From NCBI GenBank assembly GCA_019637295.1, contig JAHBVX010000012.1, forward strand, positions 124,001 through 188,000: a stretch of DNA of 64,000 bases. The letters run 5' to 3'. The translations under genes were made by a program, and so were the position numbers. The notes beneath the pieces are model-generated. The model was not told the DNA's origin and ran no database searches. It saw nothing but the letters and a program-made list of their open reading frames with translations. The stretch is from Polyangiaceae bacterium. GTDB taxonomy: Bacteria; Myxococcota_A; Polyangia; Polyangiales; Polyangiaceae. Shown here piece after piece: positions 58,797 through 62,396 of this stretch (position 1 is its first letter; the number at the start of each line of letters is the position of its first letter).

Positions 58797-60278
58797 GTGG
58801 ACGTAACTTCGTACCAGGTCGATCCCGGCAGTTATGACGAGATGTTCGACGAGCAGGGCCAGGTCCGGCCGCTGTATCGCGAGCTGGCGCAGCGGCTGAC
58901 GGATCTCGGGGATGCGGACTTCGCGCGTCGTCGGCGCATGGCGGACGTGCTCTTGCGCAACCAAGGCGTCACCTTCACCGTCTACTCCGACGACGCAGGC
59001 ATCGAGAAGGTGTTCCCCTTCGATCCCATCCCACGACTGGTCAGCGCGGAGGAGTGGGAGCGCATCGAGCGCGGCCTGATCCAGCGCGTGGAGGCGCTCA
59101 ATCTGTTCTTGAGGGACGTCTACCACGAGCAACGGATCTTCAAGGACAAGGTGATCGAGCCCGAGCTCGTGTACGGCGCCACCTTCTTCCGTCGTGAGAT
59201 GATGGGCATGGACCCGCCCCACGGCATCTACACGCACGTGGTCGGCACGGATCTGATCCGTGATCGCGATGGCACGTTCCTGGTGCTGGAGGACAACGCC
59301 AGAAACCCCAGCGGCGTGAGCTACGTGCTGCAGTGTCGCTCGGTGCTCAAGCGCGTGCTGCCGGCGCTGTTCGAACGCTACGGTGTGCGCCGCGTCGATG
59401 ACTACGCGGACTGGCTGCGCGAGACCCTGCAGCACGCGGCTCCCCGTGGCGCGAGCAGTCCCACGGTGGTGCTCTTGACGCCGGGCATCTTCAACTCGGC
59501 CTATTTCGAGCACAGCTTCTTGGCTCGGCAGATGGGCGTGCAGCTGGTGGAGGGGCGGGACCTCGTCGTCAAGGACGGCGCGGTGTGCATGCGCGCCACC
59601 CAGGGGCTGCAGCGCGTGGACGTGATCTACACCCGCATCGACGACGACTTCATCGATCCCGTGGTCTTTCGGCCGGACTCGCTGCTCGGCTGTGCCGGGT
59701 TGTTCGCGGCTTATCGCAGCGGCGCGGTGACCCTGGCCAACGCGCCTGGCTCCGGCGTGTGCGACGACAAGGCCATCTACCCGTTCGTGCCGGACATGAT
59801 CCGCTACTACCTGGGCGCCGATCCCATCCTGCCGAACGTGCCGACCTACGTCGGCGGACGGCCAAAGGATCTGACCTACATGCTCGAGCACTTGCACGAA
59901 CTGGTCGTCAAGCAGACCGACGCGTCGGGTGGCTACGGCATGCTGATCGGCACCCACGCGACCCGCGAGCAAGTCGACGAGTTCCGAGCGCGGGTGACCG
60001 CGTCCCCGCGAAGCTACATCGCGCAGCCCGTGGTGAGCTTGGGCCGTCATCCGACCGTCGTGGACGGACAGCTCGAGGGGCGGTGCGTCGATCTCCGCCC
60101 CTACGTACTGTTCGGCGATCGCATCCGGGTGATCCCCGGCGGGCTCACGCGCGTGGCCCTGCGCCGCGGCTCGTTGGTGGTCAACTCCAGCCAAGGCGGA
60201 GGCTACAAGGACACCTGGGTGCTCGCGGCCGCGGAAGAGGGTCGACCCGTGACGGGGGAGCCGGTCGATGCTCAGTAG
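58797..60278 (+). CDS. Circularly permuted ATP-grasp peptide-ligase-like protein
   Basis: I start at GTG 58797, eight bases after AAGG; an in-frame GTG at 58782 is an alternative. The 493-residue protein belongs to the circularly permuted ATP-grasp family (formerly DUF404/DUF407, CP_ATPgrasp). Visible features are MDPPHGIYTHVVGTDLIRDR, VLEDNARNPSGVSYVLQCR, VVLLTPGIFNSAYFEHSFLA, VDVIYTRIDDDFIDP and VVKQTDASGGYGMLIG. These give the nucleotide and metal sites (ED-N in EDNARNP, Lys in VVKQTDASGG). Predicted role: ATP-dependent formation of a peptide or amide bond on a small molecule or protein. The alpha-E and transglutaminase genes that follow are its conserved partners. Confidence 0.92.
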   Translation: MDVTSYQVDPGSYDEMFDEQGQVRPLYRELAQRLTDLGDADFARRRRMADVLLRNQGVTFTVYSDDAGIEKVFPFDPIPRLVSAEEWERIERGLIQRVEALNLFLRDVYHEQRIFKDKVIEPELVYGATFFRREMMGMDPPHGIYTHVVGTDLIRDRDGTFLVLEDNARNPSGVSYVLQCRSVLKRVLPALFERYGVRRVDDYADWLRETLQHAAPRGASSPTVVLLTPGIFNSAYFEHSFLARQMGVQLVEGRDLVVKDGAVCMRATQGLQRVDVIYTRIDDDFIDPVVFRPDSLLGCAGLFAAYRSGAVTLANAPGSGVCDDKAIYPFVPDMIRYYLGADPILPNVPTYVGGRPKDLTYMLEHLHELVVKQTDASGGYGMLIGTHATREQVDEFRARVTASPRSYIAQPVVSLGRHPTVVDGQLEGRCVDLRPYVLFGDRIRVIPGGLTRVALRRGSLVVNSSQGGGYKDTWVLAAAEEGRPVTGEPVDAQ

Positions 60279-61173
60279 GGTCGCCGACGCGCTGTACTGG
60301 ATGGGGCGGTACATGGAGCGGGCCGAGCACGGCGCGCGCGCGCTGGGGGTCGCGCACAGCATGCTGCTCGATCTGGCCGAGGTGCAGCCGTCGAGCGCAG
60401 AGGCGTACTGGACTCAGACGCTCCGCGCGCTGTCGCTGCCAGAGCTGCCGCTGGCCGACTTGGTGTTCGACGAGCAGGGGCCGAGCAGCATCCTGGCCAG
60501 CGTGTCCCGCGCCCGGGAGAACAGCCGACAGGTGCGCGAGGTGATCAGCTCGGAGATGTGGGAGGAGCTCAACGAGCTGTACTGGCTGCTCAAGGACGCG
60601 GCCCACGCCGAGAGTCGCGAAGAGGATCTGGCAGCGACGTTGGCCGAGGTCGTCGCGGCCAGCTTCGCCTTCGCCGGAGTGACCGATGGCACGATGCGGC
60701 GTGGGGAGGGCTGGCTGTTCACCAAGCTTGGACAGTTCGTCGAGCGCGCGGACAAGGTCAGTCGCATGGTGCGCATGAGGGTGAGCGGGCTCACGCCTCT
60801 GCTCGCCTCGGACGAGAACCTCATGTGGGTGAGCTTGCTCCGCTCCTGCAACGCGCTCGAGGCGTTTCGCAAGGTACACCCCACGCGGCTCGACTCACGC
60901 CAAGTCATCGACTTCCTCGTGCTCGACCGCGAGTTTCCCCACACCATCCGCTACAGTGTGGCCGTCGCGGGCGACTTCGCTCGCCGCCTCGCGCAGGACA
61001 CCGGAGACCGCGGGCGCGAGGTCGAGCGGGCTTTTGGTCGGCTCGCCAGCCGCCTGTCGTACATCGATGTGGACGAGGTCTTGGCCCAGGGTGTGGACCC
61101 ATTCCTGGACGAGCTCACGCAGGAGCTGTCGACCGCCGGGCTCACCCTGCAACGGACCTACTTCTTGCACTGA
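60268..61173 (+). CDS. Alpha-E domain protein (DUF403)
   Basis: The 301-residue helical protein starts at an ATG preceded by GGGGGAG, 11 bases inside the ATP-grasp gene, so the two are translationally coupled. The DUF403/alpha-E pattern is clear: MLSRVADALYWMGRYMERAE, LYWLLKDAAHAESREED, FTKLGQFVERADKVSRMVRM, LLRSCNALEAFRKVHPTRLD, and LVLDREFPHTIRYSVAVAG. Conserved Glu/Arg pairs suggest a helical bundle with a charged groove. It is always found with permuted ATP-grasp proteins and is thought to help them bind the substrate. Catalysis by the domain itself is unproven. Confidence 0.94.
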   Translation: MLSRVADALYWMGRYMERAEHGARALGVAHSMLLDLAEVQPSSAEAYWTQTLRALSLPELPLADLVFDEQGPSSILASVSRARENSRQVREVISSEMWEELNELYWLLKDAAHAESREEDLAATLAEVVAASFAFAGVTDGTMRRGEGWLFTKLGQFVERADKVSRMVRMRVSGLTPLLASDENLMWVSLLRSCNALEAFRKVHPTRLDSRQVIDFLVLDREFPHTIRYSVAVAGDFARRLAQDTGDRGREVERAFGRLASRLSYIDVDEVLAQGVDPFLDELTQELSTAGLTLQRTYFLH

Positions 61174-61189
61174 AGGTCTGTCAGGAATT

Positions 61190-61349
61190 GACCCAGTTCA
61201 TGCCGGCGAAGCCGGCCCGCGTGGGGTGGGGCCCCAACGAATTCACTTCGTTGGGGCGGGGAGGCGCGTGCCTCCCCGGCGACAGAATGAAAGAGCTGTC
61301 GATCTTTCGACAGCTCTCGAGGCGCCGCTACAGCGGCTTTCATTGGGTC
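61190..61349. repeat. Cluster of five consecutive hairpins with enclosing stems
   Basis: Within a 263-base spacer, five inverted repeats follow one another: GCCGGC/GCCGGC (61202-61216), an 11-base perfect stem with 5-base loop (61231-61257), an 8-base perfect stem with 4-base loop (61258-61277), an 11-base perfect stem with 4-base loop (61292-61317), and a short GCCGC/GCGGC stem (61324-61337). AATGAAAG (61286-61293) can pair with CTTTCATT (61337-61344) around the last two. GACCCA (61190-61195) can pair with TGGGTC (61344-61349) around the whole. This layout looks like a multi-branched RNA or palindromic mobile element. Which strand is used is unknown. Confidence 0.75.
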
Positions 61350-61421
61350 GTAACCTGTGTGTGCCCTGCGACTGACGCGACCGGGGAGCAGCCGGTTCCA
61401 TGCAGTGGAAAGCCGCTGTAA
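61329..61421. repeat. 13-base inverted repeat flanking the end of the hairpin cluster
   Basis: TACAGCGGCTTTC (61329-61341) recurs inverted as GAAAGCCGCTGTA (61408-61420), just before the transglutaminase start codon at 61437. The left copy overlaps the last hairpin of the cluster. The two pairings compete, so a structural switch is possible. The spacer between also holds ACCGG/CCGGT. Confidence 0.7.
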
Positions 61422-61436
61422 CGTCGAGGCCGTTCC

Positions 61437-62396
61437 ATGCTCCTGCACATCGTTCACAGAACCGAGCTGACCTATCCGAGCCGCATCAGCGAGAGCGTGA
61501 TGGAGCTGCGAATGACGCCCCGCACCGACGTGCACCAGACGCTGCGAGGCTTCGGGCTCGCCGTGGGCCCGCAGGCGCCGCTCATCGAGCACGTGGACTG
61601 GCTGGGAAACCGAGTCCATCAGTTCTCCGTGATCGCCTTCCACGACGCGCTGGTGATCGTGGCGGAGAGCTGCGTGGAGACGCACCCGCTGCATCCGAAC
61701 GAGGTGGAGCTGCAAGGGGTGCCGGACGAACTGCCCGTGCCACTCGCCGACTACCGCCTCAGCGACTTCCTCTGCTTCCACGGACCCGTGAACGACGACC
61801 CGCGGCTGGCGGATCTGGCACGAGTGCTCGCGATAGACCGCGCGTCTCGAGTCGGCGACGCCCTGCATCGGGTCGCTACGGGGCTGATGCACGAGCTCGC
61901 CTACCAAAAGGGTGTGACCAACACCACGACCAGCGTTTCGCGCGTTCTCGATGCCCGAGCCGGCGTGTGCCAAGACTTCGCGCACGTCGCGCTCGCGCTG
62001 CTGCGTCGAGTGGGCATGCCCGCGCGCTACGTCTCCGGATACCTGTATCGCGCAGACGGCGAGCCCGAGCTCGAGACGCACGCTTGGGTCGAAGCCTTCG
62101 TGCCCTCCCGCGGCTGGGTCGCGATCGACCCGACTCACAGCCGCGTGGCCGGGGAACAACACGTGGCGGTCGGTGTGGGGCGTAGCTTTCGCGACGTACC
62201 GCCCAACCGCGGCGTGTATCGCGGGGACTCCTCGGAGAGCATCTCGGCTGTCGTCAACATCGCCGAGGTGGGGGAGGTGCCCAAGGGGCTGCTAGCCCCC
62301 CGCCCGGTGCCCATCGACGTGCAGACCTACGCCTCCGGTCCCGCTCAGCACCGCGAGCAGCTCGATTACCAGCAGGAACAACAGCAGCAGCAGTGA
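61437..62396 (+). CDS. Transglutaminase-like cysteine protease/transferase (SCO/ATP-grasp cluster type)
   Basis: The 319-residue protein has an N-terminal beta domain (HIVHRTELTYPSRISESVME, the bacterial transglutaminase N-terminal region), then the papain-like transglutaminase domain with C178 in GVCQDFAHVAL, H215 in THAWVEAFV and D231 in AIDPTHS. The triad is complete. The C-terminus is Gln-rich (QQEQQQQQ). In such clusters this protein is thought to cleave or make amide bonds on the product of the ATP-grasp enzyme. It has no signal peptide. The structured spacer precedes it, so it could have its own control. Confidence 0.94.
   Translation: MLLHIVHRTELTYPSRISESVMELRMTPRTDVHQTLRGFGLAVGPQAPLIEHVDWLGNRVHQFSVIAFHDALVIVAESCVETHPLHPNEVELQGVPDELPVPLADYRLSDFLCFHGPVNDDPRLADLARVLAIDRASRVGDALHRVATGLMHELAYQKGVTNTTTSVSRVLDARAGVCQDFAHVALALLRRVGMPARYVSGYLYRADGEPELETHAWVEAFVPSRGWVAIDPTHSRVAGEQHVAVGVGRSFRDVPPNRGVYRGDSSESISAVVNIAEVGEVPKGLLAPRPVPIDVQTYASGPAQHREQLDYQQEQQQQQ

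Follow-up and report, generated by a model that had tools for sequence, protein, structure and literature searches.

A dispersed palindrome-ended repeat whose copies mostly lie on stop codons in a Polyangiaceae genome

The spacer between an alpha-E domain gene and a transglutaminase-like gene, located in a 64,000-nucleotide stretch of a Polyangiaceae genome (the window), was found to contain two different dispersed repeats, here called elements A and B. The left edge of A is the stop codon of the alpha-E gene, and most copies of A in the same genome (G000; a 7.65-Mb assembly in 25 contigs) begin on the stop codon of an upstream gene in the same way. It is near certain that A is a mobile repeat, and likely that it is REP/REPIN-like with a single-strand mechanism. 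We consider moderately probable the fuller reading that A is a non-autonomous, palindrome-ended REP/REPIN-like element, which is moved as a single strand and joins the 3' side of a target in which a stop triplet is included. In a compact bacterial genome, mobile DNA has to leave the genes unbroken, and a repeat that lands on a stop codon without destroying it would solve this problem in an unusually simple way that does not depend on the gene. Such a repeat would also help explain the crowding of REP-like repeats behind genes.

Elements A and B in the window

The features of the region are as follows.

60268–61173, + strand: alpha-E domain gene (PF04168; Pfam E 5.3e-78); its ortholog in the same-genus genome G001 has the same end codon
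61170–61321, + strand: element A, a 152-bp copy of the 'new' subfamily, 99% to the 152-nt consensus
61170–61173, + strand: CTGA, the motif at the left foot (target) of A, which includes the in-frame stop (49/57 distinct copies under the strict rule given below)
61174–61195, + strand: left terminal imperfect palindrome of A, an inverted relative of the right end (sequence and alignment)
61202–61216, + strand: hairpin H2, GCCGGC GAA GCCGGC (sequence and fold)
61231–61257, + strand: core hairpin H3, 11-bp perfect stem, covarying between genomes (stem search and arm comparison)
61257–61278, + strand: core hairpin H4, 9-bp perfect stem, covarying at two positions (stem search and arm comparison)
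61292–61317, + strand: right terminal hairpin H5, 11-bp perfect stem with a hypervariable 4-nt loop (stem search and copy alignment)
61317–61323, + strand: TCGAGGC, left-hand member of a 7-bp direct repeat that flanks B and may be a target duplication
61329–61420, + strand: element B, an internally deleted copy of 92 bp with ends TACAGCGGCTTTC / GAAAGCCGCTGTA (genome matches)
61424–61430, + strand: TCGAGGC, right-hand member of the same 7-bp repeat
61437–62396, + strand: transglutaminase-like gene (Pfam), starting 263 nt behind the alpha-E stop

The 263-nt spacer (61174–61436) had a minimum free energy of -142.5 kcal/mol, compared with -110.09 (sd 5.23) for shuffled sequences (z -6.20). None of the 200 shuffled sequences folded as well as the real one, and the opposite strand gave a z score of -7.10; thus, the folding excess over shuffled controls for which the first-pass annotation had asked was present on both strands. 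That annotation had also listed two perfect 11-bp stems, which were confirmed (61231–61241/61247–61257 and 61292–61302/61307–61317), and a perfect 8-bp stem, which is actually 9 bp long (61257–61265/61270–61278). Its view of the spacer as a single closed, multi-branched element was not upheld, because the arms of the closing stems fall in two separate repeats: AATGAAAG (61286–61293) lies in A and its partner CTTTCATT (61337–61344) in B, and GACCCA (61190–61195) lies in A and its partner TGGGTC (61344–61349) in B. Since A and B are found separately elsewhere in the genome, the closing stems are no conserved feature, and the pairing of A with B is accidental. The element also starts earlier than had been proposed; A begins 4 bases upstream and includes the alpha-E TGA stop codon (61171–61173) as its left edge.

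The window copy of A occupies G000:C4:185170–185321. Aligned copies start with C-TGA-AGG and finish with CTCT-(T/C)GA-G, and the feet of the element are CTGA on the left and CTCR on the right. H5 is followed by CGAG in the window copy and by TGAG in most other copies; no T-run follows the last hairpin in the aligned copies. The two ends are related in inverted orientation (CTGAAGGTCTGTC and CTCAAGAGCTGTC, 10 of 13 positions identical as read from the alignment).

Fuller copies of B are about 170 bp long (L207, L208). The left part of B was matched at 11 other places in G000 (query 61323–61440, query positions 5–73), and the last part of the same query matched separate places. The 13-base inverted repeat reaching 61420, previously described as competing with the last hairpin, is present and corresponds to the terminal inverted repeat of B. 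The 7-bp direct repeat round the window copy was absent, by eye, from five other copies of B. In five full copies the edges carried no stop, again by eye, and B was rejected as a stop-codon element. In its internal GC-rich hairpin region, B looks by eye like the reverse complement of the A core (L205–L208, L210).

Copies of A and the stop codons of upstream genes

A search of the genome with the spacer gave 40 scored long matches, the window copy included, out of 112 candidates. The 39 others all ended at about query positions 147–166, and the left edge was set from wider flanks. A pattern made from the left part of A occurred at 53 places in G000 and at none in the reversed control, which together with the shuffle z scores ruled out chance palindromes; all copy numbers given for A are lower bounds, several searches having scored part of their candidates. 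The top copies were 95–99% alike, indicating that these are recent. The earlier suggestion of a MITE/REP-like palindromic element was right for A and B alike, and by the rule set in the first-pass annotation the many dispersed copies indicate a mobile element. At one locus (L213, G000:C19:406000–425500), three copies of A lie within about 14 kb, one near-full, one partial and one minimal copy of 34 bp.

The left TGA of A was the in-frame stop of a same-strand upstream gene in 49 of 57 distinct copies under a strict rule (TGA, at least 60 open codons, and a stop frame with the highest third-position G+C and a value of at least 0.72), and in 51 of 57 when L102 and L103 (431 and 628 open codons), which fail the composition rule only, were counted. 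Three copies (L109, L128 and L099) lie 12, 18 and 2 nt, respectively, behind the true stop. Three of the 57 left ends (L083, L113, L131) were not assignable at the upstream end, and the same applied to the 34-bp copy L213b, outside the 57. The count of 57 includes L131 and a fragment on L215, and excludes the 34-bp copy, the deleted L215 copy and copies without a readable left end (e.g., the third on L213). The union of two copy lists contained 59 distinct left ends, of which 50 passed the strict rule and 52 passed when L102 and L103 were added. The upstream proteins were of many different kinds.

Bases upstream of the stop were also biased. C preceded TGA in 43/48 full copies of A compared with 104/206 background TGA stops. 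A purine was present at -2 in 41/48 full copies compared with 54/104 background NNC-TGA stops, and T at -3 was found in 0/48 compared with 18/104. This preference, read from the aligned copies, suggests that the DNA target of A has the form VRC-TGA.

To compare these stops with those of a genome free of visible copies, the C-terminal 95 residues of 19 proteins encoded upstream of A were searched in G001, where A itself gave no match at E 1e-4 among the 21 candidates scored out of 29. Orthologs (at least 45% identity) were found for 16 of the 19 proteins. The end codon was identical in 11/16 and at most 3 codons off in 14/16, whereas in two of the 16 the G001 gene extended further, by 13 and 26 codons. 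The G001 orthologs use TGA (10), TAA (3) or TAG (3) as their stop, and A was not visible in the 72 nt behind these 16 stops. These ortholog ends indicate that A sits at native stops. They ruled out stops created by gene truncation, the two longer orthologs notwithstanding. At the site corresponding to the window, G001 reads CAC TGA AT ATG CTG, with the alpha-E and transglutaminase genes 2 nt apart, from which it follows that A entered at the alpha-E stop. The present distance of 263 nt to the next gene is made up of A, B and flank; A thus changes operon spacing, separating a gene pair that is 2 nt apart in the relative.

How far the placement exceeds expectation depends on the null that is used. 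Among non-coding CTGA sites outside A, 116 of 423 (27%) were stops, in a background of about 409 kb of partly overlapping G000 loci with gene calls by simple third-position G+C rules. Against this background 49/57 gave a binomial P of 4e-20, although a null over all non-coding CTGA sites is generous to the stop-codon claim. When only sense sites close to gene ends were used (51/54), P rose to about 3e-9 to 5e-8 within 100 nt, to about 1e-5 to 6e-5 within 60 nt, and to 0.004–0.009 within 30 nt. Because P is only 0.004–0.009 under the narrowest null, extreme selection could produce most of the pattern, and purifying selection may account for much of the stop-codon bias.

This result counts in favor of a rival, conventional origin, in which A would be a DDE-type MITE bounded by the terminal inverted repeats AGGKCTGTC/AGAGCTGTC, with a 3-bp TGA duplication, and its location at stops purely a residue of purifying selection. 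The inverted ends agree with such an origin, as does the TGA (or CGA) at both ends of most copies, although TGA/YGA at the two edges may represent either a 3-bp duplication or a portion of the ends themselves. However, the bias stays strong under the 60-nt and 100-nt nulls, a sister subfamily with other ends is found at TAG stops (G096, described below), and each end of A is itself a hairpin. DDE elements are not known to need hairpin ends. A search for the right end of A in G000 gave 53 matches, and the five extra sites taken among the matches listed were all short or deleted copies (the ORFs round them are unannotated). On balance we regard the DDE-type origin as unlikely, though it retains some weight. 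A provides a clear test case for distinguishing insertion that is aimed from insertion that is only filtered by selection.

Related elements, rival explanations and candidate machinery

Related elements in other genomes share a common core, GTGGGGTGGGG followed by two hairpins, and have genome-specific terminal hairpins. Matches were found in 20 of 108 genomes of the host's family, G000 included; this carrier count is a lower bound, at most 7 candidates having been scored per genome. In named genomes, 11 of 16 core-hairpin stretches were in Myxococcota-type records (Minicystis rosea and MAGs labelled Polyangiaceae, Byssovorax, Labilithrix and Myxococcales), and the remaining 5 were in unrelated bacteria with a single hairpin only matching. 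These records make Polyangiaceae the most likely family.

An in-frame stop was present at the left end in 6/7 loci of G063, in the one locus of G064, in 4/5 fetched loci of G096 (all four TAG), in 3/4 loci of G004, in 2/4 loci of G014 and in 1/3 loci of G005 (TAG), the other two loci of G014 and of G005 being without a clear stop. In G079 (TAG, 577 codons) and G085 (TGA) a stop lay at or near the expected edge, the edge of the element itself being indistinct. In two of four G002 loci, where the edge is likewise indistinct, the in-frame stop fell 1 nt past the expected position in one and 11 nt short of it in the other. Six places in G022 showed no clear edge stop, with one marginal TAG and one TGA stop 14 nt before the edge, and no clear edge stop was found in the one locus taken from each of G080 and Minicystis (G053). 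Some of the loci without an edge stop are fragmentary contigs or shortened copies, and the loci are samples (5 of 7 listed for G096, 4 of 7 for G002, 3 of 4 for G005, 1 of 2 for G079 and 1 of 3 for G080). One G096 locus (L282, G096:C75) has tandem or nested partial core-hairpin copies in one place.

Covariation in relatives, proposed earlier as a check, was present in the core hairpins. In 12 representative cores, picked by hand, the pairing of H3 arms was 0.958 with their own partners and 0.809 with swapped ones, with six positions varying, and that of H4 arms was 0.990 and 0.848, respectively, with double changes at two positions. Such covariation would be equally expected of a palindrome kept for single-strand DNA processing and of an RNA.

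The stable fold and covarying stems, together with the sense orientation at gene 3' ends, would also suit a domesticated RNA element (a terminator, an mRNA stabiliser or a ribosome-stalling hairpin) acting on the upstream mRNA, and REPs have been discussed as post-transcriptional elements (PMC3733652). Against this role stand the variety of the upstream proteins, the absence of A behind the 16 compared G001 stops, the close similarity of the top copies, and the lack of a T-run after the last hairpin. We consider such a domesticated role improbable, while a by-effect of A on expression is possible.

A further explanation is that A inserts by recognising translation termination, through the terminating ribosome or the mRNA, and not a DNA motif. 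In-frame TGA and TAG stops in different subfamilies and the sense orientation are consistent with this, but the preference for C at -1 and a purine at -2 suggests an ordinary DNA target, and three copies lie 2–18 nt after the true stop. We know of no machinery for insertion guided in this way, and the explanation is very improbable. Hardly credible, despite the low folding energy, is the first-pass proposal of a structured cis-regulatory RNA that takes up all 263 nt and serves the transglutaminase gene, since the stretch consists of two independent dispersed repeats joined by the closing stems, A is repeated more than 50 times behind a wide range of genes, the same-genus empty site has a 2-nt spacing, and Rfam gave no match at the gathering cut-off in the whole 64-kb window.

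The REP/REPIN-like reading draws on signs of hairpin processing. In 22 'new' copies, otherwise near-identical, the diversity of the H5 loop was 0.396 compared with 0.027 in the rest of the element, and nine loops were seen; in 26 'old' copies the values were 0.311 and 0.061. In the 34-bp copy the left end is fused directly to the right hairpin, resembling the 'double foot' REPs described in PMC6006769. From the loop hypervariability and this end-to-end copy, we infer that A passes through a hairpin or single-strand stage.

G000 contains one RAYT-like Y1 gene (C1:689221–689997; L172/L232), which is the only Y1_Tnp match in the genome (26.9 bits). No copies of A were found round it in loci of 3.3 kb and 3.8 kb. 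The protein was matched in 5 of 41 family genomes; four carriers of related elements (G002, G004, G005 and G014) had no match to it at E 1e-6 and no Y1_Tnp match at 1e-4. The right hairpin of the G022 element lies about 180 nt downstream of a RAYT-like gene in G022 (L238 1501–2375, G022:C288), possibly by chance, and this hairpin was not found at a second RAYT-like locus of G022. As it is not co-distributed with the element, the RAYT-like gene is kept only as a weak possibility for the partner of A, and no transposase was tied to A at the G000 locus or in the four carriers.

In G014:C5 (L134 2905–3210), the left half of an A-like element is joined to a group II-type reverse transcriptase fragment (RVT_1). 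A reverse transcriptase partner was rejected: the G014 fragment is truncated, a related fragment occurs without the element in L162, and G000 had no reverse transcriptase match at E 1e-8.

In the mechanism that we propose for the REP/REPIN-like reading, A would travel as single-stranded DNA, and a Y1/HUH transposase supplied in trans would cut at the short foot motif beside each terminal hairpin. The element would then join the 3' side of a target with a stop triplet, VRC-TGA for A and CTAG for the sister subfamily. With the stop triplet preserved, the host gene would remain whole, and insertions of this kind would persist where others are removed by selection. In the window, A would have moved in at the alpha-E stop and parted two closely adjoining genes; B, a different repeat, would have lodged later at the right edge of A. 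More tentatively, a superfamily (probably of Polyangiaceae) may have evolved the use of stop codons as a general safe harbour, with subfamilies that have different ends, TGA or TAG targets and a shared core; this extension is possible, but we lean against it at present. If it were true, any gene end would be a harmless landing site, and the classical REP 'GTAG', through its TAG, would be a further instance of this strategy.

Comparison with known systems

REP/REPIN sequences are short palindromes, arranged as inverted pairs round a spacer, which are dispersed, non-autonomous and concentrated behind gene 3' ends. In REP/REPIN-RAYT systems the foot of the hairpin carries a 5' GT[AG]G (or CGTC) tetranucleotide. 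A resembles them in being dispersed, mostly extragenic and multi-copy, and in having an inverted pair of palindromes with a spacer between them. It differs in its feet, CTGA and CTCR, in a spacer that is a conserved hairpin core, and in the exactness with which its copies lie on stop codons. According to PMC3733652, REP termini often provide a TAG stop to flanking ORFs. RAYT genes are described in PMC2817692 as always lying between two inverted REPs, unlike the single RAYT-like gene of G000, which has no flanking copies of A.

Class 3 TnpA genes have flanking hairpins with a CnGA foot, according to PMC6006769; the left foot of A, CTGA, fits this form, and the high copy number is a further likeness to the systems covered there. 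The right foot, CTCR, does not fit, and the tyrosine motif of the G000 Y1 protein, YVLGNF, lacks by eye the Y----Q signature of class 3. As described in PMC6006769, the ends of IS200/IS605 elements have subterminal hairpins, and insertion takes place in one orientation next to a fixed short target. A is similar in both respects but contains no TnpA, and the likeness is drawn from layout, not sequence. With DDE-type MITEs, A (152 bp) shares inverted ends, the absence of a gene and many copies; it differs in having no clear target duplication and ends that are complete hairpins, and no parent transposon was found among the right-end sites inspected.

A literature search, in which most subscription journals were outside the scope, found no report of a myxobacterial repeat placed on stop codons. 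Elements of this general kind are already known; apparently new are the CTGA ends and hairpin core of A, the exactness with which most copies are placed, and the existence of TGA and TAG subfamilies.
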